DNA from: Oscillospiraceae bacterium
Lineage (GTDB): Bacteria > Bacillota > Clostridia > Oscillospirales > Oscillospiraceae
Assembly (NCBI GenBank): GCA_017461445.1
Contig: JAFTXW010000013.1
Location: 1-64,000 of the forward strand
Reading direction: 5' to 3'
Length of the DNA: 64,000 bases
Position numbers and translations under genes: made by a program. The notes beneath the pieces are model-generated. The model did not search any database and was not told the origin of the DNA. It saw nothing but the letters and a program-made list of their open reading frames with translations. Below, piece by piece: positions 1 to 17,599 of this stretch (positions are counted from its first letter, which is position 1; each line of letters begins with the position of its first letter).

Positions 1-120
1 GAAGGTTTCGTGCTGGGCGTGGGTGCGAAGATGTTTACCATTGCGGGGCCGGTGATCGTGTATGGTGTGAGTGCGAGTGTGGTGTATGGGTTGATTTATT
101 GGATTTGGTCGATAATGTGA
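1..120 (+). CDS. 3' end of an unknown gene with a hydrophobic C-terminus (repeat copy R1)
   Basis: The reading frame is open from base 1 to a TGA at 118-120 and gives the last 39 residues of a protein whose start lies outside the window. The tail is glycine-rich and hydrophobic (VGAKMFTIAGPVIVYG, then YGLIYWIW) and would form one membrane segment or a membrane hairpin. The same 120 bp recur as R2 at 1397-1516 and, decayed, at 2598-2696 and 3692-3780, so this is the copy nearest the possible parent gene. I do not recognise the family. Confidence 0.6.
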   Translation, partial: EGFVLGVGAKMFTIAGPVIVYGVSASVVYGLIYWIWSIM

Positions 121-123
121 AAA

Positions 124-150
124 TGCCGCCTGTTGAGAAAACAGGCGGCA
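124..150. terminator. Hairpin between R1 and the first convergent gene
   Basis: TGCCGCCTGTT at 124-134 pairs with AACAGGCGGCA at 140-150 (11 bp, loop GAGAA). It lies between two convergent reading frames and probably stops transcription from both sides. Each of the four R copies is followed by a hairpin of different sequence at this position. Confidence 0.7.
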
Positions 151-154
151 TAGT

Positions 155-1213
155 TTATGTAATAGGAGCAAACCAATCGGGCGTTGGTGGATAATGTGCA
201 TCCAATGCCGGGATAACTTCCTTTTCTGCAGAAGCCAGAACTTGGAAGATTTGTAAGAAGAATGTTTCCAAATCTTTTTGATCCTGTGGATAGCGGAATG
301 TAGAACCGATACGATGGTCAAAGCCTGCACCGACATATCGGATCAACAGTCCGACACCTTTGAACATAGGACCAACATCAATATCCAGCAAAATATAGTG
401 TCCATTTGCTGTTCGTTTCTGGATAAAGAAACATCCATATTCATGCTTGACATAGGAATAACTATACTGCTTGCCAAACCTTTTTAGTGCGGGGGCGACC
501 GATAGACTGGGGGTATCTAATATGGCAGGGGTAGAGGTAATACGTTCGGGAAGATGCTTTTCAAAATGGTCGCAAGCATTTTGAACCAGAGGAGCAGCAC
601 TATTGTTCAGCTGGTCATATATAGATTGCTCTTCGTTTGTCAAGCAGCACTCCACAAACCCCATATAGCGCACACCCGGCAGAAGCTGCTTCATCGCCTC
701 GAAATAGGGTGCGGGGTCATAGGTTTCTGTCCCGTTATGAATCACGATCCTCAAGTCAATGCTGTTCCATCTGGGAAATACAGAATCACGATACAGAGTG
801 ATACTGGGTCCTTTGATGCAGGAAGGCGTGTTTCCTGGTTCTTGAATGATAGCCGGAATGTGATTCTCAAAAAAGTCCACATCCTGATAGATAATATGAG
901 CTTCACTAAGTCCGTATCTGCGGTGGATTTTAGGTACAACAGACATGATCTCAGTTTCGGGGCACCCGGTATCCTCTTCAATGTTGGACAAATAAAAAAG
1001 TTCCCCACCATTGGTAAGCTGCGAACGCATTGGGCCAATATGAGGGCAGTCTTTCATGATTTTAGGAAGTCCACCGTAGTTGTCATGAAAATAGTATAGG
1101 AACCGATCGTAATGAAGATTTTGCTGATTCAAAAAGGTTTGAACAATCTTGGGACAATCGGAAAATGGAATTTTGGTTCCGATCAAAAAGCGATAAGCTT
1201 GAATTGCCAACAT
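155..1213 (-). CDS. Unknown protein, first cassette gene of the R-repeat array
   Basis: A soluble-looking protein of 352 residues with no signal peptide or membrane segment, and I do not recognise the family. The start is placed at ATG 1213, nine bases after AGAGG; a GTG at 1219 in the same frame is too close to that site. A good minus-strand promoter lies upstream. The gene is less GC-rich than the housekeeping genes and sits between R1 and R2, convergent to R1, as the DUF4375-like and DUF4259-like genes sit beyond R2 and R3. By context it may be an immunity-type accessory gene, which is inference only. Confidence 0.75.
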   Translation of the reverse strand: MLAIQAYRFLIGTKIPFSDCPKIVQTFLNQQNLHYDRFLYYFHDNYGGLPKIMKDCPHIGPMRSQLTNGGELFYLSNIEEDTGCPETEIMSVVPKIHRRYGLSEAHIIYQDVDFFENHIPAIIQEPGNTPSCIKGPSITLYRDSVFPRWNSIDLRIVIHNGTETYDPAPYFEAMKQLLPGVRYMGFVECCLTNEEQSIYDQLNNSAAPLVQNACDHFEKHLPERITSTPAILDTPSLSVAPALKRFGKQYSYSYVKHEYGCFFIQKRTANGHYILLDIDVGPMFKGVGLLIRYVGAGFDHRIGSTFRYPQDQKDLETFFLQIFQVLASAEKEVIPALDAHYPPTPDWFAPIT

Positions 1214-1264
1214 ATTCACGTACCTCTTTTGCTACAAGTATATAATAAAACTCACTTCAAGCTT

Positions 1265-1293
1265 AGTATACTACATAGTTGATTTGATGTAAA
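1265..1293 (-). promoter_or_regulatory. Sigma-A-type promoter of the 155-1213 gene
   Basis: Read on the minus strand, TTTACA (plus 1288-1293) and TATACT (plus 1265-1270) are separated by 17 bases, close to consensus. The first cassette gene therefore carries its own promoter. Confidence 0.6.
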
Positions 1294-1372
1294 TTCCCTT
1301 TTGTTAGGAAGTCAAAATGTACCATAAATCATCAGCTCACAAGAAAAATGTTCCCTAATAGAACACGAAGTA

Positions 1373-1516
1373 ATGGGTCCTAACTTGACAGCAGCAGAAG
1401 GTTTCGTTCTGGGTGTGGGGGCGAAGATGTTTACCATTGCGGGGCCAGTGATCGTGTATGGGCTGGGGGCTAGTGTGGTGTATGGGGTTATTTATTGGCT
1501 TTGGACAATACTTTAA
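1373..1516 (+). pseudogene. R2: intact-frame copy of the R 3' end
   Basis: Bases 1397-1516 match R1 over the full 120 bp with scattered, mostly conservative changes and end in TAA. The frame is open back to an ATG at 1373, so a 47-residue hydrophobic peptide could be made, but the ribosome site is poor (GAAG only three bases upstream). I read it as a detached 3' end rather than a gene, although a small membrane peptide cannot be excluded. Confidence 0.6.
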
Positions 1517-1540
1517 AAGCAGGCCTTCACGGCCTGCTTT
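1516..1540. terminator. Hairpin between R2 and the second cassette gene
   Basis: AAAGCAGGCC and GGCCTGCTTT pair across TTCAC, with T-rich sequence on the plus side. It lies at the stop codon of the minus-strand gene that ends at 1542. Confidence 0.7.
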
Positions 1541-1541
1541 T

Positions 1542-2546
1542 TCAGCGGAAATGTTTTCGGTTTTCCAGTACATAAGCGGACAAACGATCCAGCAGCTCCT
1601 TTTCCACGGAAGAATAGTAGAGTTCATCCTCATCTTCAAAATCTATGCCTTTCTCTTCCAGACGATCCATTGCATTCTGGATAGCCTCCTCTGATTTCGG
1701 AACACGGCCGCGGGGAAATTTGCATTGAATCCGCTCCATAAGCTGAACCATCTGCTCCGCACCGATTTGTGAGAAGACCTGATAAACCTTTGCAAAATGG
1801 GTGCCATGATAGTAAAGATATCCTTCGAATCCGCCAGAGTTGACTTCCATACACATTTCGTCTACATAGTAAAAATTCCGCTCCCACTTATTCAGGCAAT
1901 TAAGTATAGCACCGTTTGCTGTCATTTCTCCCAGATGTGTGGAAAGACCGGAAAGCAGATCCGCTTCCGGCAAAGACAGAATCTCGTCAATGGTCTGGCT
2001 ACATTCATCAGGCTGCTTTGGCTGTGGAATCGGAATACTGGCAACGGGTTTCCGTTTCTCATCAGCAATCAGTTCAGGCACCTCAGAAGGGACAAGAGAT
2101 TTGTATTTCTCCCATACTTCGGTCAGATTATACATTGCAAGTTGAGCCTCAAAATCTGCTACTTCTGTGCAAAGCCAAACCAGGTAATTGATACCTGCCT
2201 TCGTGTTTCCATTTTCTATGTGGTATTGTGCCATGCGAAGGTAAAATATCGCATAGTGATCCATATAAGAAAAGCATGCCACAACAGTTTTCATGCAGGC
2301 AACACCTGCCTCAAAGTCGCCGCTTTCCATGTAGGAATTCCCGAGGAAAAACAAAAAACGAGCAAATGGGCGATAGTCTGGATTCTCGGCTAAGCGGTAT
2401 ATCCCAGACACCAGATCCTTCGGTGATTTTGAAATCGAATACTGCTGTTTAAGCTGCTCATATTTGTTGCGGAAGTCATCATAGATTTTTAGCTGCTGAT
2501 TTATTTCCACCAGTATCACCACTTTCTGTTTGATTAGCAATAGCAT
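1542..2546 (-). CDS. DUF4375 (DMP19-like) protein with helical repeat N-terminus
   Basis: A protein of about 334 residues. Residues 20-150 look like TPR-type helical repeats (FARFLFFLGNSYMESGDFEAG). The last 150 or so residues carry the DUF4375/DMP19-like signature VNSGGFEGYLYYHG followed by a helical tail. The biochemical role of the family is not established; such proteins often occur in accessory and immunity-rich loci. The start is uncertain: ATG 2546 has no ribosome site, and GTG 2510 after AAAGTGGTG is an alternative. It is the second gene of the R-repeat array, between R2 and R3. Confidence 0.75.
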   Translation of the reverse strand: MLLLIKQKVVILVEINQQLKIYDDFRNKYEQLKQQYSISKSPKDLVSGIYRLAENPDYRPFARFLFFLGNSYMESGDFEAGVACMKTVVACFSYMDHYAIFYLRMAQYHIENGNTKAGINYLVWLCTEVADFEAQLAMYNLTEVWEKYKSLVPSEVPELIADEKRKPVASIPIPQPKQPDECSQTIDEILSLPEADLLSGLSTHLGEMTANGAILNCLNKWERNFYYVDEMCMEVNSGGFEGYLYYHGTHFAKVYQVFSQIGAEQMVQLMERIQCKFPRGRVPKSEEAIQNAMDRLEEKGIDFEDEDELYYSSVEKELLDRLSAYVLENRKHFR

Positions 2547-2597
2547 ATCACATACTGACGAAATTCACAACGGCGAAACGCACCATTTCATCACAAG

Positions 2598-2696
2598 GGG
2601 CGAAGATGTTTACCATCGCGGGGCCGGTGATCGTGTATGGGCTGGGGGGCTAGTGTGGTGTATGGATTGGTCTATTGGATTTGGAATCTACTATAA
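2598..2696 (+). pseudogene. R3: frameshifted, 5'-truncated copy of the R 3' end
   Basis: Homology to R1/R2 starts abruptly at GGGGCGAAGATG (2598) and runs to TAA 2694-2696. One extra G in the run near 2645 breaks the frame and brings in a stop. The stretch is non-coding now and marks the boundary of the third cassette. Confidence 0.7.
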
Positions 2697-2700
2697 TTTA

Positions 2701-2730
2701 TCCCCGGGAAAGCACCGCTTTCCCGGGGAA
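2701..2730. terminator. Hairpin between R3 and the third cassette gene
   Basis: TCCCCGGGAAAGC pairs with GCTTTCCCGGGGA across ACC, giving a stem of 13 bp. It lies between R3 and the stop of the minus-strand gene at 2735. Confidence 0.7.
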
Positions 2731-2734
2731 CTGC

Positions 2735-3598
2735 TTAATCCAGAATTGAGTCAGATAAAATTGCCCTCAGAATATCCGATTCCGGGTTGCCCCACTGTGT
2801 GTCAATTCCCCAGAACACAAAGGATAGTCCGTTTCGATTGCTGATTTCCGGAAGGTCATCCTGGTTATTCCCGATCACACGGAAATTCCTTTTCTTAAAA
2901 TGGAACAGACTGCTTTCAGATGTGAATGTTGTATTATCTCTGGTAGGAACATAGGGAACATTCTTTAACTGTTCCGCAACGGGGCATTCATCAAATATTT
3001 TATTGTACAGCTGGAACATTGCCCAGTAATCCTTAAGCTCAGGTTCTATGTAAGAATACTGACTGACTTTATCGCCAACCTTACGCAAAACAATATATTT
3101 GCCATCGTAGTTTCTAAAATTCTGTTCGCCTAATTGCGAGTGTACAGGGTAATGCTTATCAAGCGTTTTAAGTTGGAGTGCAATCAGATCACCCGTCTGG
3201 AAAATGGGCTTCATATGTATGCTCAGCCGAATTTTCTTTTTAGGAGGTTGGGGAGATAATAGCTTCTCCCGGAATTCTGCAAGTACCTTTTTTCGCTTAT
3301 TTAATACACCATTTCCTTCAGCAGCCCAGATATCCAAACCAAATCCAGAATCGATCATTCCGATAGCTTGATTTCTGACTGCATCGGTCAAGATGCCGCA
3401 TTTCCACATGAAGTCGGCAAGAGAATAGTAATAATTCGCCCATTCTTCTTCATCCGATTCGTCGAAAGTCCTTCTGACATACGAATCAATTTTTGCCAGA
3501 GCTTTTTCAACATCATTATAGAGAAATGTTGCCTGATACTCTGATTTTAAATCCTGTGCAGTGTCGTTTCCGTTGATGCTTGCATTCCAAGTTCCCAC
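2735..3598 (-). CDS. DUF4259-like protein
   Basis: Start is set at GTG 3598, ten bases after AAGGAG, giving 287 residues; it makes the protein begin with the family-like GTWNASINGNDTAQD. The N-terminal 115 residues (NYYYSLADFMWKCGIL, IDSGFGLDIWAAEG) resemble DUF4259, found in Firmicutes accessory loci. The rest (about 135-287) is less clear. A longer frame to 3688 would run into the R4 repeat and is not favoured. Third gene of the R-repeat array, with its own promoter. An immunity-type role is inference. Confidence 0.75.
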   Translation of the reverse strand: MGTWNASINGNDTAQDLKSEYQATFLYNDVEKALAKIDSYVRRTFDESDEEEWANYYYSLADFMWKCGILTDAVRNQAIGMIDSGFGLDIWAAEGNGVLNKRKKVLAEFREKLLSPQPPKKKIRLSIHMKPIFQTGDLIALQLKTLDKHYPVHSQLGEQNFRNYDGKYIVLRKVGDKVSQYSYIEPELKDYWAMFQLYNKIFDECPVAEQLKNVPYVPTRDNTTFTSESSLFHFKKRNFRVIGNNQDDLPEISNRNGLSFVFWGIDTQWGNPESDILRAILSDSILD

Positions 3599-3622
3599 AG
3601 TAAGCACACTCCTTTTTATTTT

Positions 3623-3650
3623 AGTATACCAAGCCACTGTCCGAATGTAA
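3623..3650 (-). promoter_or_regulatory. Promoter of the DUF4259-like gene
   Basis: On the minus strand, TTACAT (plus 3645-3650) and TATACT (plus 3623-3628) are 16 bases apart, followed by AAGGAG and the GTG start. The -10 is the same as that of the first cassette gene. Confidence 0.55.
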
Positions 3651-3691
3651 ATAGCCAACAATAATTCATGGGGCATAATTATGTACAAACA

Positions 3692-3780
3692 GAGAGCTTT
3701 GTCCTGGGCGTGAAGATATTTACGATTACGGGGCCAGCATGGTGTATAGGCTGATATATTGGATCAGGACGATTTTATAA
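3692..3780 (+). pseudogene. R4: heavily decayed copy of the R 3' end
   Basis: The segment aligns to R1 in order (GGGCGTGAAGATATTTACGATTACGGGGCC, interrupted here only for description, then GTGTATAGGCTGATATATTGGAT) but lacks one block of about 6 bp and another of about 27 bp, and has an early stop. It is the most degraded of the four copies and the furthest from R1. Confidence 0.6.
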
Positions 3781-7380: not shown

Positions 7381-7434
7381 ATTTGAGAGAAATTGCTATA
7401 TAAGCAAATGTCTATATAGCAATTTCTCTCAAAT
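7381..7434. repeat. Perfect 22-bp inverted repeat upstream of the HNH gene
   Basis: Bases 7381-7402 are the exact reverse complement of 7413-7434, around a 10-base spacer. The arms begin ATTTGAGAGAAATTGC and are AT-rich. It could be a terminator for the esterase, an operator, or the edge of the HNH insertion; no T run follows on the plus side. Confidence 0.8.
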
Positions 7435-7474: not shown

Positions 7475-7519
7475 AACATCATCAGACAATACTGCCTATT
7501 GAATTTGAGAGGTAATGAC

Positions 7520-8194
7520 ATGAAATTTGAATTGGATAGCTACCATCGCAACACGTCTGATAATGAGTTGATTGATGATTTAAAATGTGTGGCAAATCTT
7601 ATCCAAAGAAATACTGTTACATTAGAAGAATACAATGAATACGGACATTTTCACGGTACAACATTAACACGGAGATTTGGTTCTTGGTTTAAATGTTTGG
7701 AGTTAGCTGGTCTTGCACCATCAAGGCCAAAAATTGGAATATCAGATGACGAGTTATTTGAAGAAATCGAAAACATATGGATAAAACTCGGTAGACAGCC
7801 CACTTATGCGCAGATGCGTGATATGGCACGTTTTTCAATCGGAACATACGAAAAAAGATTTGGTGGATGGAGAAATTCTCTTAATGCATTTGTAGACTAT
7901 ATCAATGGCAACGATAATCTAGTTGACGCTCCTAATCACGTTCTACAAAATATACAAACTAAAGAAGATAATAAACATAAAACATCTCGTACAATTAACC
8001 TTAGAATAAGATTTCTCGTGCTAAAGCGGGATAATTTTAAATGTTGTAGTTGCGGCGCATCACCAGCAAAAGATTCATCTGTTGAATTACATGTTGATCA
8101 CATCAAGCCTTGGTCTAAAGGTGGCGAAACCGTTGTTGATAATTTGCAAACATTATGTTCAAAATGCAATATAGGAAAAAGTAATCTTGGTTAA
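7520..8194 (+). CDS. HNH endonuclease with two homing-associated repeats
   Basis: A 224-residue nuclease. Residues 13-65 and 75-127 are two copies of the homing-endonuclease-associated helical repeat ([12 protein letters not shown] and [11 protein letters not shown]), thought to bind DNA. The HNH domain has C175/C178, the DH pair at 193-194, N208 and C213/C216, so catalytic and zinc residues are all present. ATG 7520 follows GAGAGGT by seven bases. The gene is far more AT-rich than its neighbours, which suggests horizontal acquisition; it is free-standing and not inside an intron or intein that I can see. Confidence 0.9.
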
Positions 8195-8353: not shown

Positions 8354-9628
8354 TTATGGCATTTCCCGGTAATAGATCATATTTGCCACGGTTTTGGTAT
8401 CCTGGAAGAAATCGTAGATATTTTGAACCCGCTGACGGATGGTTTCGTCGCAGTAGGTATCCGTACGGGTGGTCAGGAAGTAGTCCAGGTAAGCATCCGG
8501 GTCGGTGTAGATCAGGGATGTGGCATCGTAGATGGCGTAGTGCTCGTCCTCATAGATTTTCTTATCTTCCAGCTCCACAAAGCTGTGCAGCTGGCCGTAG
8601 ATAAACGCGTAGTTTTCCGGGAGGGCTTCCTCCGCGTCGTAGACGAACCAGAAGATCAGGGGCATGGCTACACCGCCGTCGGTGTCCCCTTCCCGCTGGG
8701 GGAGCATGGCATAGTGTACCCAGGCTTTTTCATCACGGGAGGCCACCATGCGGCCATAGCCGTCGGAGTAGGTCCAGTCGTCGATGGTCAGGCGGTACTG
8801 CACCTCCGCCGGGGCAGTCTCATCGAAGATGACCCCCTCGGGGATGCGGGCAAAGGCAGGCTCGGGATCCAGGAATACCGTAGGCTCCGACACCAAAATC
8901 TGCGGGGATAGGGAGGAAATGACCGTTCCCTCGAACCGGGCCAGCACCTCCTCCACCTTCTGCTGATAAGGGAAGTTGGCTTCGTTAAAGGCGATGGGCA
9001 TACCGCCGTAGGCTTCCTCGAAGTAGAACCGCAGTTCTTCCTCGATGGCTTCCAGATTGTCAGCGGGGATATCTTCCGCCGCGTTCATGGCCTCACGAAT
9101 CGGCTCCGTTTCCGCAAATTCCACGCTGCACATCCAGTCGTGGCCGAAGAGAAAATTCTGGTTGGTCAGTACCAGGTAATACCAGGCGTTGTTCTCTCCT
9201 TCCAGAGCCGCGGTATCGTAGGCCCCGGACAGGTCGATGGTCATGGTGCCGCTGGTGCCTGCGGAGAATTTTGTATTTTCAAAACGCACACGGCCTTCCA
9301 GCCTGGGGGCTTCCTCCTCGGTGAACCAGTTGATAAGCTTCAGCTGCTCCTGGAACTGAAGCTCCTTGTCCGATCCGTTTTCCACATAGACCGATACGAT
9401 GCCGTTTCCCTCGTAGGTGCCCGTCAGGCTCAGTTCATCCCCGTCCAGTGGGGAAAACAGGGGCCAGGTAAAGGCCGCCATGGTGAGAAACGCCATGATC
9501 ACCGCCGCCAGTACTGCCGTCCGCCGCAGGTCCCAGGGGGCGGCCCTTCCCCTGTTCAAGTCTACCCCGGTGTTCTTTTCAAAAATATCCTTGATGTTAT
9601 CCAAATTATGCGAATACATTCTGCCCAT
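8354..9628 (-). CDS. Membrane-anchored protein encoded with an ECF sigma factor, putative anti-sigma or sensor
   Basis: A protein of 424 residues with about 35 cytoplasmic residues, one membrane segment at 36-58 and a large extracytoplasmic part. It begins ten bases after the sigma gene and the sigma stop codon overlaps its ribosome site AGGAGG, so the two are one operon. The topology fits an anti-sigma factor, but no zinc finger (HxxxCxxC) is present and I do not recognise the domain. A sigma-regulated envelope protein is the alternative. Confidence 0.75.
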   Translation of the reverse strand: MGRMYSHNLDNIKDIFEKNTGVDLNRGRAAPWDLRRTAVLAAVIMAFLTMAAFTWPLFSPLDGDELSLTGTYEGNGIVSVYVENGSDKELQFQEQLKLINWFTEEEAPRLEGRVRFENTKFSAGTSGTMTIDLSGAYDTAALEGENNAWYYLVLTNQNFLFGHDWMCSVEFAETEPIREAMNAAEDIPADNLEAIEEELRFYFEEAYGGMPIAFNEANFPYQQKVEEVLARFEGTVISSLSPQILVSEPTVFLDPEPAFARIPEGVIFDETAPAEVQYRLTIDDWTYSDGYGRMVASRDEKAWVHYAMLPQREGDTDGGVAMPLIFWFVYDAEEALPENYAFIYGQLHSFVELEDKKIYEDEHYAIYDATSLIYTDPDAYLDYFLTTRTDTYCDETIRQRVQNIYDFFQDTKTVANMIYYREMP

Positions 9629-13539: not shown

Positions 13540-16143
13540 ATGGCCAAACCTACAAATGAGCTCACCCCTATGCAGAAGCAGTACCAGGAGATCAAGGAGC
13601 GGAACCGGGACTGCATTCTGTTCTTCCGGCTGGGTGACTTCTATGAAATGTTCAACGAGGACGCGAAATTGGCGGCCCGGGAGCTGGATCTGACCCTGAC
13701 CACCCGTGACCGGGGCAAGCCCAAGGAAGAGCAGACCCCCATGTGCGGCGTGCCCTACCACAGCGTGGATTCCTATATCGCCCGGCTGGTGCAGAAGGGA
13801 TATAAGGTGGCCATCTGCGAGCAGATGACGGACCCCGCCCTGACCAAGGGGCTGGTGGAGCGAGAGATCACCCGCATCGTCACCCCCGGCACCGTTACCG
13901 AAAGCTGTATGCTGGACGAGAGCCGTAACAATTACATCGGCTGTATCTACGGCGAAAGCGGCAAATTCGGTTTGGCCTTCTGCGATGTGTCCACCGGTGC
14001 CTTCTTCGCCACCGTCTGCGCCGACCCCCAGAGCGTTGCCTCGGAGCTGGGCCGGTTCGCCCCCAGCGAGGTCATCCGCTATGGTCAGAACGTGGACTGC
14101 GAACAGATCGAGGACGCCATTTTCCGCCGCCTGAACTGCTGCGTCAACGAAGGAAAATCCGAATCCTTTCGCTTAGAAAGCACGGAGGATGTACTGGAAA
14201 AACATTTTGGCGCGTCCCTTGCCCAGTTGGGCCTGACGGGCCTGCCTGCGGCGGTCATTGCCAGCGGCGCGCTGCTGCAGACCCTGCTGTGGGTGCAGAA
14301 GAATGACCTGGCCCACATCCGGGAGCTGCAATATTACACCACAGGCCGGTTTATGGAGCTGGATCTGGACGCCCGGCGGAACTTAGAACTCACGGAAACC
14401 ATGCGCTCCAAGGAGAAAAAGGGCACCCTTCTGTGGGTGCTGGACAAAACCCACACCGCCATGGGCGGCAGAATGCTCCGTTCCTGGCTGGAAAAGCCCC
14501 TGCTGGATCCCGTTGAAATCACCCGCCGCCATGGAGCTGTGGAGGATCTGGTGGACTCCGTCATCGTCCGGGGCGAGCTGGAACAGGCCCTGCGGGATGT
14601 GACCGATTTGGAGCGGGTCATGACGAGAATCGTCACCGGCACCGTCAACTGCCGTGACCTGCTGGGCCTCGCAAGAGGCTTCCGGGCACTGCCAGAAGTG
14701 AAGAACCAGCTTTCCAAAATGGAGGCTCCCCTGCTGCGTAAATTGGAGCAGGCCATCGATTCCCTGACAGACTGCGCTGACCTGATCGAGAACACCATCG
14801 TAGACGAACCTCCCCTGACCATCCGGGAGGGCGGCATCATCCGTCCGGGTGCCAACGCAGAAGCGGACCGGCTCCGGGACATCATGGAGGGCGGCAGCGG
14901 CACCATTGCCGCTATCGAGGCATCCGAGCGGGAAAAGACCGGAATCCGCACCCTGAAAGTGGGCTTTAACCGAGTATTCGGCTATTATATTGAGGTTTCC
15001 AAATCCTTTATGGATCAGGTGCCTGCCAATTACGTCCGCAAGCAGACCCTTGCCAACTGCGAGCGGTACATCACACAGGAATTGAAAGAGCTGGAAAACC
15101 AGGTGCTTACCGCCAAGGACCGGCTGACTGCCCTGGAATATCAGATCTTTACCCAGCTGCGGGAGCATCTGGCCCAGCAGGCCGCCCGGGTGCAGCAGAC
15201 CGCCGCCGCCGTGGCTGCTGCCGATACCCTGTGCAGCCTTGCCGCCGTGGCCGTTCAGCGGGGCTACTGCCGCCCGGAGATCACCCTGGGCCGGGAGATT
15301 TCCATCACCGACGGCCGCCACCCTGTGGTGGAGGCCATGCTGAAGGATTCCCTGTTCGTCCCCAACGACACCCACCTGGGTGCCGACGACAATCAGGTCT
15401 CCATCATCACCGGCCCCAATATGGCGGGTAAATCCACCTATATGCGGCAAGTCGCCCTCATCGTGCTGATGGCCCAGATGGGCTCCTTTGTGCCTGCGAG
15501 AAGCGCGAAAATCGGCCTTGTGGATCGGGTCTTCACCAGAATCGGTGCCAGCGACGATCTGGCATCGGGTCAGTCCACCTTCATGGTGGAGATGGCGGAG
15601 GTGGCCTCCATCCTGAAATACGCCACCTCCCGGAGCCTGCTGATTTTGGACGAGATAGGCCGGGGCACCTCTACTTACGACGGCATGGCTATCGCCCGTG
15701 CGGTGCTGGAATACGCCGCCAACCCTAAGCGTCTGGGAGCCAAGACCCTCTTCGCCACCCACTACCACGAGCTTTCCACCATGGAGGACAAGCTCCCCAA
15801 TGTAAAAAACTACAACATCGCCGTGAAAAAGCGGGGCGATCAGATGATCTTCCTGCGCAAAATCGTCCCCGGTGCCACCGACGACAGCTACGGCATTGAG
15901 GTGGCAAAGCTGGCGGGCATCCCCAACGTAGTCATCAGCCGGGCACGGGAGATCCTGGCGGAGCTGGAAAAAGAGGGTATTGTTCGCGCCCCCTCCGCAC
16001 CGAAGGAGCCGGAGGATCAGGTGAGTATGCTGGATCTGACGGGGCAGCAGATCATCGCCGCCCTCAGCACCATTTCCGTGGAGACCCTGACCCCCATCGA
16101 AGCCATGAACGAACTGTACAAGCTGAAAAAAATGTTGGAATGA
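13540..16143 (+). CDS. mutS: DNA mismatch repair protein MutS
   Basis: MutS recognises mismatches and recruits MutL. The 867-residue protein has the mismatch-binding motif F34-Y35-E36, Walker A GPNMAGKST at 625-633 and DEIGRGTST at 704-712, followed by the HTH and a C-terminal dimerisation tail. ATG 13540 is chosen because AAAAGGA lies about nine bases upstream; longer frames run into the intergenic repeat. Confidence 0.97.
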   Translation: MAKPTNELTPMQKQYQEIKERNRDCILFFRLGDFYEMFNEDAKLAARELDLTLTTRDRGKPKEEQTPMCGVPYHSVDSYIARLVQKGYKVAICEQMTDPALTKGLVEREITRIVTPGTVTESCMLDESRNNYIGCIYGESGKFGLAFCDVSTGAFFATVCADPQSVASELGRFAPSEVIRYGQNVDCEQIEDAIFRRLNCCVNEGKSESFRLESTEDVLEKHFGASLAQLGLTGLPAAVIASGALLQTLLWVQKNDLAHIRELQYYTTGRFMELDLDARRNLELTETMRSKEKKGTLLWVLDKTHTAMGGRMLRSWLEKPLLDPVEITRRHGAVEDLVDSVIVRGELEQALRDVTDLERVMTRIVTGTVNCRDLLGLARGFRALPEVKNQLSKMEAPLLRKLEQAIDSLTDCADLIENTIVDEPPLTIREGGIIRPGANAEADRLRDIMEGGSGTIAAIEASEREKTGIRTLKVGFNRVFGYYIEVSKSFMDQVPANYVRKQTLANCERYITQELKELENQVLTAKDRLTALEYQIFTQLREHLAQQAARVQQTAAAVAAADTLCSLAAVAVQRGYCRPEITLGREISITDGRHPVVEAMLKDSLFVPNDTHLGADDNQVSIITGPNMAGKSTYMRQVALIVLMAQMGSFVPARSAKIGLVDRVFTRIGASDDLASGQSTFMVEMAEVASILKYATSRSLLILDEIGRGTSTYDGMAIARAVLEYAANPKRLGAKTLFATHYHELSTMEDKLPNVKNYNIAVKKRGDQMIFLRKIVPGATDDSYGIEVAKLAGIPNVVISRAREILAELEKEGIVRAPSAPKEPEDQVSMLDLTGQQIIAALSTISVETLTPIEAMNELYKLKKMLE

Positions 16144-16849: not shown

Positions 16850-17599
16850 ATGAACCAGCTTCTTCAAATGATCCACAGCGTAAACGACTATGAACGCACC
16901 CTGTTCCAGACCAAGCGGGAACATGTCAGTCCCAGTCTCGACCGCTGGTACAGCGACCTGCGGCCCGATCAGATGAACAACAATTTCTTCCTCCCCAAGG
17001 GCAGCCCTACCTGCTTTGACATTGATACCGCCATTGACCTGCAAAAGAAGCGAGGCCTACACTATGTAATGCTCCGCATGGCAAAGCCCATGGAGCCGGA
17101 GCTGCGGGAGCTGTTCCCCTTTGAAGAAGAAATCACCTATATCATGGCCCTTCTTCGGGATACCAGTTCTGAATGGAAGCAAAACGGGGAAATCGAGATT
17201 CGGGATATCCAGACCGCGGACATCCGCGCCGACCTTCTGGACGTGTCCTCCGTCCCGCAGCCCTATCAAGCCGCCGCTTACCGGAATATGCAGTTAGTCT
17301 TAGAGGTTGCTAAAGAAAACCCGGATTATCACTGGCTCTGCGCCTACAAGGGTGGTCAAAAAGTGGGTACTGTCTATGCCCTGTGCCGGGGTGGCTATGT
17401 GGAAATGGACGACCTGTGGGTCGCAAAAGAACACCGAAACCAATATATCGCCACCACATTGCTGAAATACATCGCACAGCAGTTCGGCGGAACGCTGTAC
17501 CTCCACGCAAATGCTGCCGCCACTCCCAAAGATATGTACGCCCGGATGGGCTTTGAAATTATTGAAACCGTATACGACTATTATATGGAATGGGCTTGA
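16850..17599 (+). CDS. GNAT family N-acetyltransferase (two-part)
   Basis: A protein of 249 residues. The last 100 or so residues form a GNAT fold with the acetyl-CoA loop HRNQYIATTLL and the preceding strand VEMDDLWVA. The first half is less conserved and may be a divergent N-terminal GNAT-like lobe. The ribosome site GAGGTGA overlaps the CPBP stop codon. Substrate unknown. Confidence 0.8.
   Translation: MNQLLQMIHSVNDYERTLFQTKREHVSPSLDRWYSDLRPDQMNNNFFLPKGSPTCFDIDTAIDLQKKRGLHYVMLRMAKPMEPELRELFPFEEEITYIMALLRDTSSEWKQNGEIEIRDIQTADIRADLLDVSSVPQPYQAAAYRNMQLVLEVAKENPDYHWLCAYKGGQKVGTVYALCRGGYVEMDDLWVAKEHRNQYIATTLLKYIAQQFGGTLYLHANAAATPKDMYARMGFEIIETVYDYYMEWA

Follow-up and report, generated by a model that had tools for sequence, protein, structure and literature searches.

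The window analysed here, a stretch of 64,000 nucleotides that opens contig JAFTXW010000013.1 of an Oscillospiraceae bacterium (positions 1-64000 of contig C49 in genome G000), begins with four copies of a short repeat, and this repeat corresponds to the final 39 codons of spoVAC, which encodes a membrane protein of sporulation. Quite likely, non-autonomous integrative cassettes have formed an array here at the 3' end of that gene. As judged from sequence comparisons, the cassettes combine the right arm of a larger element with a replacement spoVAC end and are most likely moved by the recombinases of that element, which are large serine recombinases (LSRs); LSR catalysis as well as the formation and the movement of cassettes are what we infer from these comparisons. 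Small cassettes, the first one of the window included, have the same kind of arm and the same GA as the right end of the LSR element, and they begin with the 3' end of spoVAC in place of the element's left end, which is why spoVAC stays whole.

An earlier note on this DNA had claimed four copies of the repeat on the plus strand, and all of them are present (R1 to R4, at 1-120, 1397-1516, 2597-2696 and about 3697-3780), each with a different G+C-rich hairpin after its stop codon. The copies at 1-120 and 1397-1516 are 86% identical across 122 nt, and both are intact gene ends of 39 codons; R3 lacks the initial 21 nt and has a broken reading frame, and R4 is degenerate (tail scores from R1 to R4: 179, 171, 78 and 62). 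R1, R2 and R3 are each followed by a different minus-strand gene, as had been stated. The second of these encodes a DMP19 protein (PF14300, Pfam E 1.8e-17), in agreement with the earlier label DUF4375-like, which we take to be the former name of that family, whereas the label DUF4259-like for the third did not hold, its protein having no significant Pfam family (best match DUF1617, E 0.15). The first gives no Pfam family at E<=1, and neither the first nor the third obtains a significant family name in Pfam, NCBIfam or PADLOC. The suggestion that at least two of these genes have their own promoter agrees with promoter-like sites of the form TTTACA-N17-TATACT leading into genes 1 and 3; by the same pattern, none was found for gene 2. 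The features of the locus are as follows, where arm denotes the DNA immediately upstream of a repeat.

1-120, plus strand: R1, spoVAC 3' end (last 39 codons), with its start, by sequence comparison, at the crossover point GA and hence at base 1 of contig C49
124-151, no strand assigned: terminator-like hairpin after R1
155-1219, minus strand: cargo gene of cassette 1, of a family without match, with a 35% identical homologue in a spoVAC cassette of locus L099
1265-1293, minus strand: promoter-like TTTACA-N17-TATACT into cargo gene 1, by pattern
1374-1396, plus strand: right arm of cassette 1 (TGGGTCCTAACTTGACAGCAGCA), joined at GA to R2
1397-1516, plus strand: R2, displaced intact spoVAC 3' end
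1517-1542, no strand assigned: terminator-like hairpin after R2
1542-2546, minus strand: cargo gene of cassette 2, with a weak TPR-like N-terminus and DMP19 (PF14300)
2597-2696, plus strand: R3, truncated and frame-broken spoVAC 3' end, arm unrecognisable
2735-3688, minus strand: cargo gene of cassette 3, which probably starts at about 3607, with a 62% identical homologue as the cargo of cassette 1 in locus L102
3623-3651, minus strand: promoter-like TTTACA-N17-TATACT into cargo gene 3, by pattern
3697-3780, plus strand: R4, degenerate spoVAC 3' end that closes the array on its distal side

The parent gene that had been expected upstream, with a homologous 3' end, was found in relatives, where the repeat sequence forms the end of an open reading frame (ORF) of about 145 amino acids that belongs to SpoVAC/SpoVAEB (PF03862, E 1.2e-44). 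A tail match is present in 54 of 60 genomes, the window's own included (E<=0.01), and in 118 of 136 genomes of the same genus (E<=1e-6); the named relatives are mostly metagenome-assembled genomes of Oscillospiraceae, and some are Faecousia. The genome-wide search for the repeat that the earlier note had called for, run on DNA at E<=0.001 over the 2.66 Mb of the own assembly, matched R1, R2 and R3 and nothing outside the window locus, with the weak R4 below detection. This assembly, which is 91% complete, contains no close copy of the 5' part of spoVAC, and its best match to spoVAC outside the tails has 38% identity and is probably a paralogue. The first base of the contig coincides exactly with the crossover position, and the assembly may have broken at strain differences.

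An origin of the tails from phages or plasmids was considered and rejected. Seven records labelled as phage matched, and the 6 examined (L155-L160, MT83xxxx, deposited as bacteriophage) look like bacterial contigs, since their spoVAC is complete or almost so; 18 plasmid records matched the tail, and the 2 examined both have a full-length spoVAC. As a separate observation, five loci have some 100 bp of G+C-rich DNA inserted at the same spot within a spoVAC tail, after AAGATGTT or a similar sequence (L097 at about 9225-9340, L110 at about 13972-14086, L206 at about 17277-17382, and also L214 and L215); it is probably a small repeat element.

The recombination signal is the arm immediately upstream of the repeat together with GA, and not the 120-bp repeat itself, so that the earlier proposal of the repeat as recombination substrate stands only insofar as the shared 3' end marks the site. 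Orphan tails are preceded, with variation, by the arm TGNGTCCTANNTTGACACAAGCA, the tail itself opening with GA, and 47 chosen junctions gave a single arm consensus; these junctions were picked by hand with decayed ones omitted, R3 and R4 of the window among them, and their rows were snapped to CA followed by GA, which makes those four positions conserved by construction. Of the window's copies, R2 has a clear arm, whereas none can be recognised at R3 and R4. The intact spoVAC genes displayed have codons ending in AAAACC before GA where the orphans have the arm, and the arm is absent there. A 23-nt arm pattern with at most 3 mismatches occurred at 13 places in 10 of the 60 genomes, the own included, and not at all in the controls; 12 of the places lead into a tail or tail fragment, and at the thirteenth (G033:C76:3137) the resemblance to a tail is confined to the first codons. 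A looser arm pattern applied to the loci examined also matched places without a tail, e.g. L105:11694.

In relatives, the arrays come in different numbers and kinds. At least one extra tail on the same strand downstream of an intact spoVAC was seen in 22 of 80 named loci, within up to 10 kb, a lower bound that omits L150 (second match paralogue-like) and does not count L117, which has no extra tail in its 10 kb and carries tails about 12 kb from spoVAC on the same contig. Two or more tail matches occur in 45 of the 136 same-genus genomes by a hand count that may include paralogues, and some G and L labels denote the same contigs twice across the locus sets. The loci L074, L092 and L103 have kept an arm-like site and have a decayed tail. 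In 27 loci, 48 intervals between tails measure 455-9455 bp with a median of about 1.2 kb, the first interval of L041 beginning at a contig end, and they contain 88 ORFs of at least 70 amino acids that fall into 62 clusters, a number of them artefacts of reading through tails. Among the 29 of the 88 listed ORFs that the Pfam scan covered are GH43, ROK, SIS, a tannase-like esterase, a hydantoinase, FAD oxidoreductases, Fic, DMP19 (in the cassette of L122 as well as in the window), AraC- and MerR-type regulators, a YitT-like membrane protein and several without family; PADLOC models identified a type I restriction-modification set, and inspection by eye pointed to genes for the use of rhamnose and galactosides. 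Exact promoter-like sites are present at 20 of the 47 junctions, compared with a mean of 0.04 in 50 shuffles, and lie close to the right ends of the cassettes. Cargo genes are found on both strands, and as several cassettes have plus-strand genes, a convergent accessory gene, which the earlier note had listed as a part of each unit, is not a defining feature.

The same note had seen a resemblance to polymorphic-toxin loci with orphan C-termini and immunity genes, and repeated 3' ends beside unrelated small genes, together with the presence of DMP19, would suit such a locus. But the repeat is the end of SpoVAC, and this identity of the parent refutes the toxin explanation in the main; the identified cargo is metabolic or regulatory, belongs to type I restriction-modification or is of unknown kind, and includes an esterase, GH43, a transporter-like protein and, by eye, genes of sugar use, and the three window proteins have no PADLOC match at E<=0.001, which leaves this explanation with a probability close to nil.

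A recombinase inside the small cassettes was looked for and not found, neither by LSR search in the 27 loci nor among the 29 Pfam-scanned ORFs, which contain no transfer protein either. A crude pattern screen of 100 loci of relatives and the window, which overlooked LSRs, gave two different ORFs of tyrosine-recombinase type, located in 3 loci on the upstream side of spoVAC, and no IntI-type tyrosine recombinase beside the arrays in the loci screened.

The likely mobiliser is found at the same site. Two motif scans of viral contigs led to two contigs in which three tandem LSR genes are closely followed by an arm and a spoVAC tail. A search with the third LSR gave 4 matches in the 136 same-genus genomes (E<=1e-110), and in every one a displaced spoVAC tail comes about 90-175 bp past the LSR match; a query from L199, where the spoVAC tail follows about 325 bp after the trio, gave a single match at the same threshold in 394 genomes across the order (G138, of another family), also with a spoVAC tail. 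Searches of viral contigs with two of the LSR proteins added 3 new trio contigs, 2 of them (L199 and L200) with spoVAC tails and the third (L201) with another target. In G470, each of the three tandem LSRs, which have the same orientation, has Resolvase and Recombinase domains; the other trios were identified by similarity, and the G427 contig bears the third LSR only. In a tree of 35 LSRs with long branches, the positions A, B and C are separate (support 100/98 for A, 93/96, below the star, for B, and 99/98 for C), and the close spoVAC trios cluster with 100/100 in each position. In all five trio genomes spoVAC is interrupted at the GA close to codon 106, from where the sequence runs on into a left end common to these elements (GANGANNGTGNTATAATANN..CCAAGTCAG-like, and later GATTTAGTCCAA), the right arm of the element (e.g. 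GTCCTAACTTGACACAAGCA) adjoins the displaced spoVAC end, and the direct repeat common to both ends is GA. The left contig of G470, the one element examined for conjugation genes, encodes a coupling protein (PF02534, 1.2e-50) and a TraG-type P-loop protein (PF19044, 8.2e-21) and has a TrbL match under its cut-off, and because of these matches the element is classed by its sequence as conjugative-type, on evidence of which a relaxase is not part.

Related LSR trios occur also elsewhere, in L191 (G002:C33), L201 and L192 (G013:C1). Their targets are a spoVT-like and a tyrosine-integrase-like gene, both by eye, and an unnamed one, with the trio of L201 running into the tyrosine-integrase-like gene, and their right ends have in common a T-run followed by TTGACA.

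Where the exchange falls can be seen when the same element is compared in L153 and G470: the 5681 nt that lead up to the junction differ at 22 positions and the 117-nt tail beyond it at 26, starting with the sixth base of the tail, and the adjacent cassettes differ, with NERD in L153 and an ornithine-cyclodeaminase-like gene plus a LysR regulator in G470. Also a small cassette has been found in different surroundings, as G046 and G473, which belong to different families, share one with a 90% identical body, a preceding tail of 83% and a following tail of 66% identity, the SpoVAC proteins being 53% identical, and this is the pattern that a moving tail-gene-arm unit would be predicted to leave. 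Pairs of spoVAC genes with an upstream wobble identity of 0.6-0.7 are 0.69-0.76 identical over the last 48 nt before GA, and in the first 24 nt after it the identity falls to 0.32 where both genes carry an array (n=7), 0.38 where one does (n=27) and 0.47 where neither does (n=40), in a comparison of 79 of 80 genes whose pairs are not independent. This divergence at GA is supporting and not decisive, because the contrast is mostly gone at lower upstream similarity and because pairs without a visible array, e.g. L092 and L130, can have unlike tails too. A main crossover about 50 nt into the tail was considered and dropped in view of the pair contrast at GA, the L153/G470 break, the split genes and the G046/G473 cassette.

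The comparison of relatives supports turnover, and the cassette idea of the earlier note is largely right. The cassette with a 452-aa gene is the first in L077, L082, L084 and L217 and the second in L110 (77-92% DNA identity), other pairs of loci share cassettes at 88-92% identity, and related cassettes stand in different orders. One could regard the units as relics only, the decayed remains of separate element insertions that are no longer mobile, given that the cassettes examined have no recombinase and that decayed tails exist (R3 and R4 in the window, L119, L114). This is improbable in view of the many intact tails and arms, the related cassettes at different positions and in different families, and the cassettes' start with the spoVAC end and not with the left end of the element.

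Several observations speak against an array of cassettes moved by the LSR element. In 7 of 22 loci an orphan tail equals the tail of the gene at 0.75 or more of the wobble sites in the first two 24-nt bins, i.e. over the first ~48 nt, which exchange at GA alone leaves unexplained, and in L112 the tails are alike almost throughout past the first ~24 nt. Among the 22 loci and 33 orphan tails that passed a reading-frame filter, mean wobble identity between gene tail and displaced tail within a locus is 0.55 in the first bin and 0.57 in the second, compared with 0.36 and 0.44 across loci, and 0.40, 0.46 and 0.52 in the later bins compared with 0.37, 0.41 and 0.49; this early excess within loci suggests a second, homology-driven process. 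Such likeness would be expected if the arrays had been built by ordinary homologous recombination, with crossovers between transferred and resident DNA where the spoVAC ends are conserved, the arm being merely inherited from a founding insertion. However, the arm belongs to LSR elements inserted at the same GA, and a near-identical element end adjoins two tails that differ from each other, identity being lost right at the junction; this origin of the arrays is improbable, slightly more so than the relics. Further points count against the cassettes as products of the LSR element. Their lack of the element's left end means that they are not simple deletion derivatives; the divergent trio of L200, outside the close clusters of the tree, has a spoVAC tail whose arm is unlike the others; and for each element the left and right ends are on separate contigs that are not physically joined. 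The left-end pattern occurs at spoVAC in only the 4 trio carriers of the 136 genus genomes, but it was derived from these elements, and as a reversed control gave 9 hits, only its position at spoVAC counts (7 places outside spoVAC, 6 with one shared upstream context and 1 other, look unrelated and were discarded). No match to the third LSR was found in the 91% complete window genome at E<=1e-60, and none to LSRs at E<=1e-20 in the DNA examined of the 27 array loci. A decay of distal tails, clear in the window, is weak overall (rho -0.33, p 0.05, n=35) and reversed in 4 of 11 arrays, and was given up as a general rule. Finally, neither circles nor excision were observed, nor two strains of which only one has a given cassette.

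On balance, the cassette array with the LSR element as mobiliser is the preferred reading, and it may work as follows. The incoming element would insert at spoVAC, with its LSRs presumably catalysing the exchange at GA; it could excise with or without adjacent cassettes, would then travel by conjugation, and would later leave cassettes behind. The right junction of each cassette would be the counterpart of the element's right attachment site (attR), and cassettes could move along with an integrated element by excision between its left site (attL) and attR, or as circles of their own. In each event spoVAC would gain the tail of the cassette, and the old tail would be pushed downstream, where it can decay. 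Convergent cargo would be transcribed from the promoter near the right end of the cassette and stopped by the hairpin. Selection for restoration of spoVAC after damage by the element is a plausible force behind the first tail-gene-arm unit. A more far-reaching version, which must be regarded as tentative and rather less probable than its opposite, is an integron-like gene-capture platform run by the LSR triplet, where small cassettes would move as circles with an attachment site made half of the element arm and half of the spoVAC 3' end, each insertion would rebuild spoVAC, the gene of a sporulation channel, and add a promoter-equipped gene, and the helper element would switch spoVAC off while integrated.

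Beyond R4 the window continues as ordinary chromosome, with rubrerythrin and then an ORF that resembles NagB by eye. Further on, a perfect 22-bp inverted repeat (7381-7434) lies directly upstream of an ORF at 7499-8194 that is HNH endonuclease-like by eye.

The site would be a widespread place of gene exchange in uncultured gut Firmicutes that is tied to sporulation and hence to transmission from host to host. It links small genes of unnamed function to a likely mobiliser, provides a testable attachment site, and suggests a way for recombinase-less cassettes to escape the cost of disrupting a target gene. In the literature searched, which left preprints and most subscription papers outside, no paper joining spoVAC with 'serine recombinase' was found.

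Integron gene cassettes are small units, often of one or two genes, that are stacked at one site and have diverse cargo, and the spoVAC cassettes resemble them in being small, stacked and diverse. Unlike in integrons, no tyrosine recombinase was seen in the arrays by the crude screen, and promoters are often within the cassettes. Another comparison is with cis-mobilizable elements (CIMEs) and accretion-mobilisation (PMC5704250, PMC7563491), in which units without recombinase that have att-type sites are stacked one after another next to an integrative element. Both attL and attR are retained by CIMEs, whereas the spoVAC cassettes have only the attR-like right arm and the target-gene end on the left, the element's left end being found only at the 4 carriers among 136 genomes. 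Also the SCC and ECC islands (staphylococcal cassette chromosome and Enterococcus cassette chromosome; PMC6222049) are LSR-driven insertions with variable cargo at a conserved gene, there rlmH, with att repeats and often several attR; they use the CcrAB pair and a central TATCATAA motif, which is absent from the 47-junction consensus, whereas here the target is spoVAC, the LSRs form a triplet, the repeat is GA, a 39-codon end is replaced, and many cassettes of ~1 kb have no recombinase. Like the intervening elements of sporulation genes, such as yin in yabG (PMC10747680) and skin (PMC5025042), the LSR element splits a sporulation gene, but the small spoVAC cassettes leave the gene uninterrupted; spoVA genes have also been reported as mobile cargo (PMC6907783). 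Elements of the skin kind restore their gene by excising in the mother cell. The LSR element also resembles the streptococcal integrative and conjugative elements (ICEs) with a serine-integrase triplet (PMC4701971), which are reported to have the targets mutT, traG and hsdM and share with it three LSRs in the same orientation, A/B/C clades by position, insertion within a gene, a conjugation module and a very short direct repeat (2-8 bp there, GA in 5 of 5 genomes here). What sets the present system apart from these ICEs is that its target is spoVAC and that small cassettes which restore the tail form arrays there.

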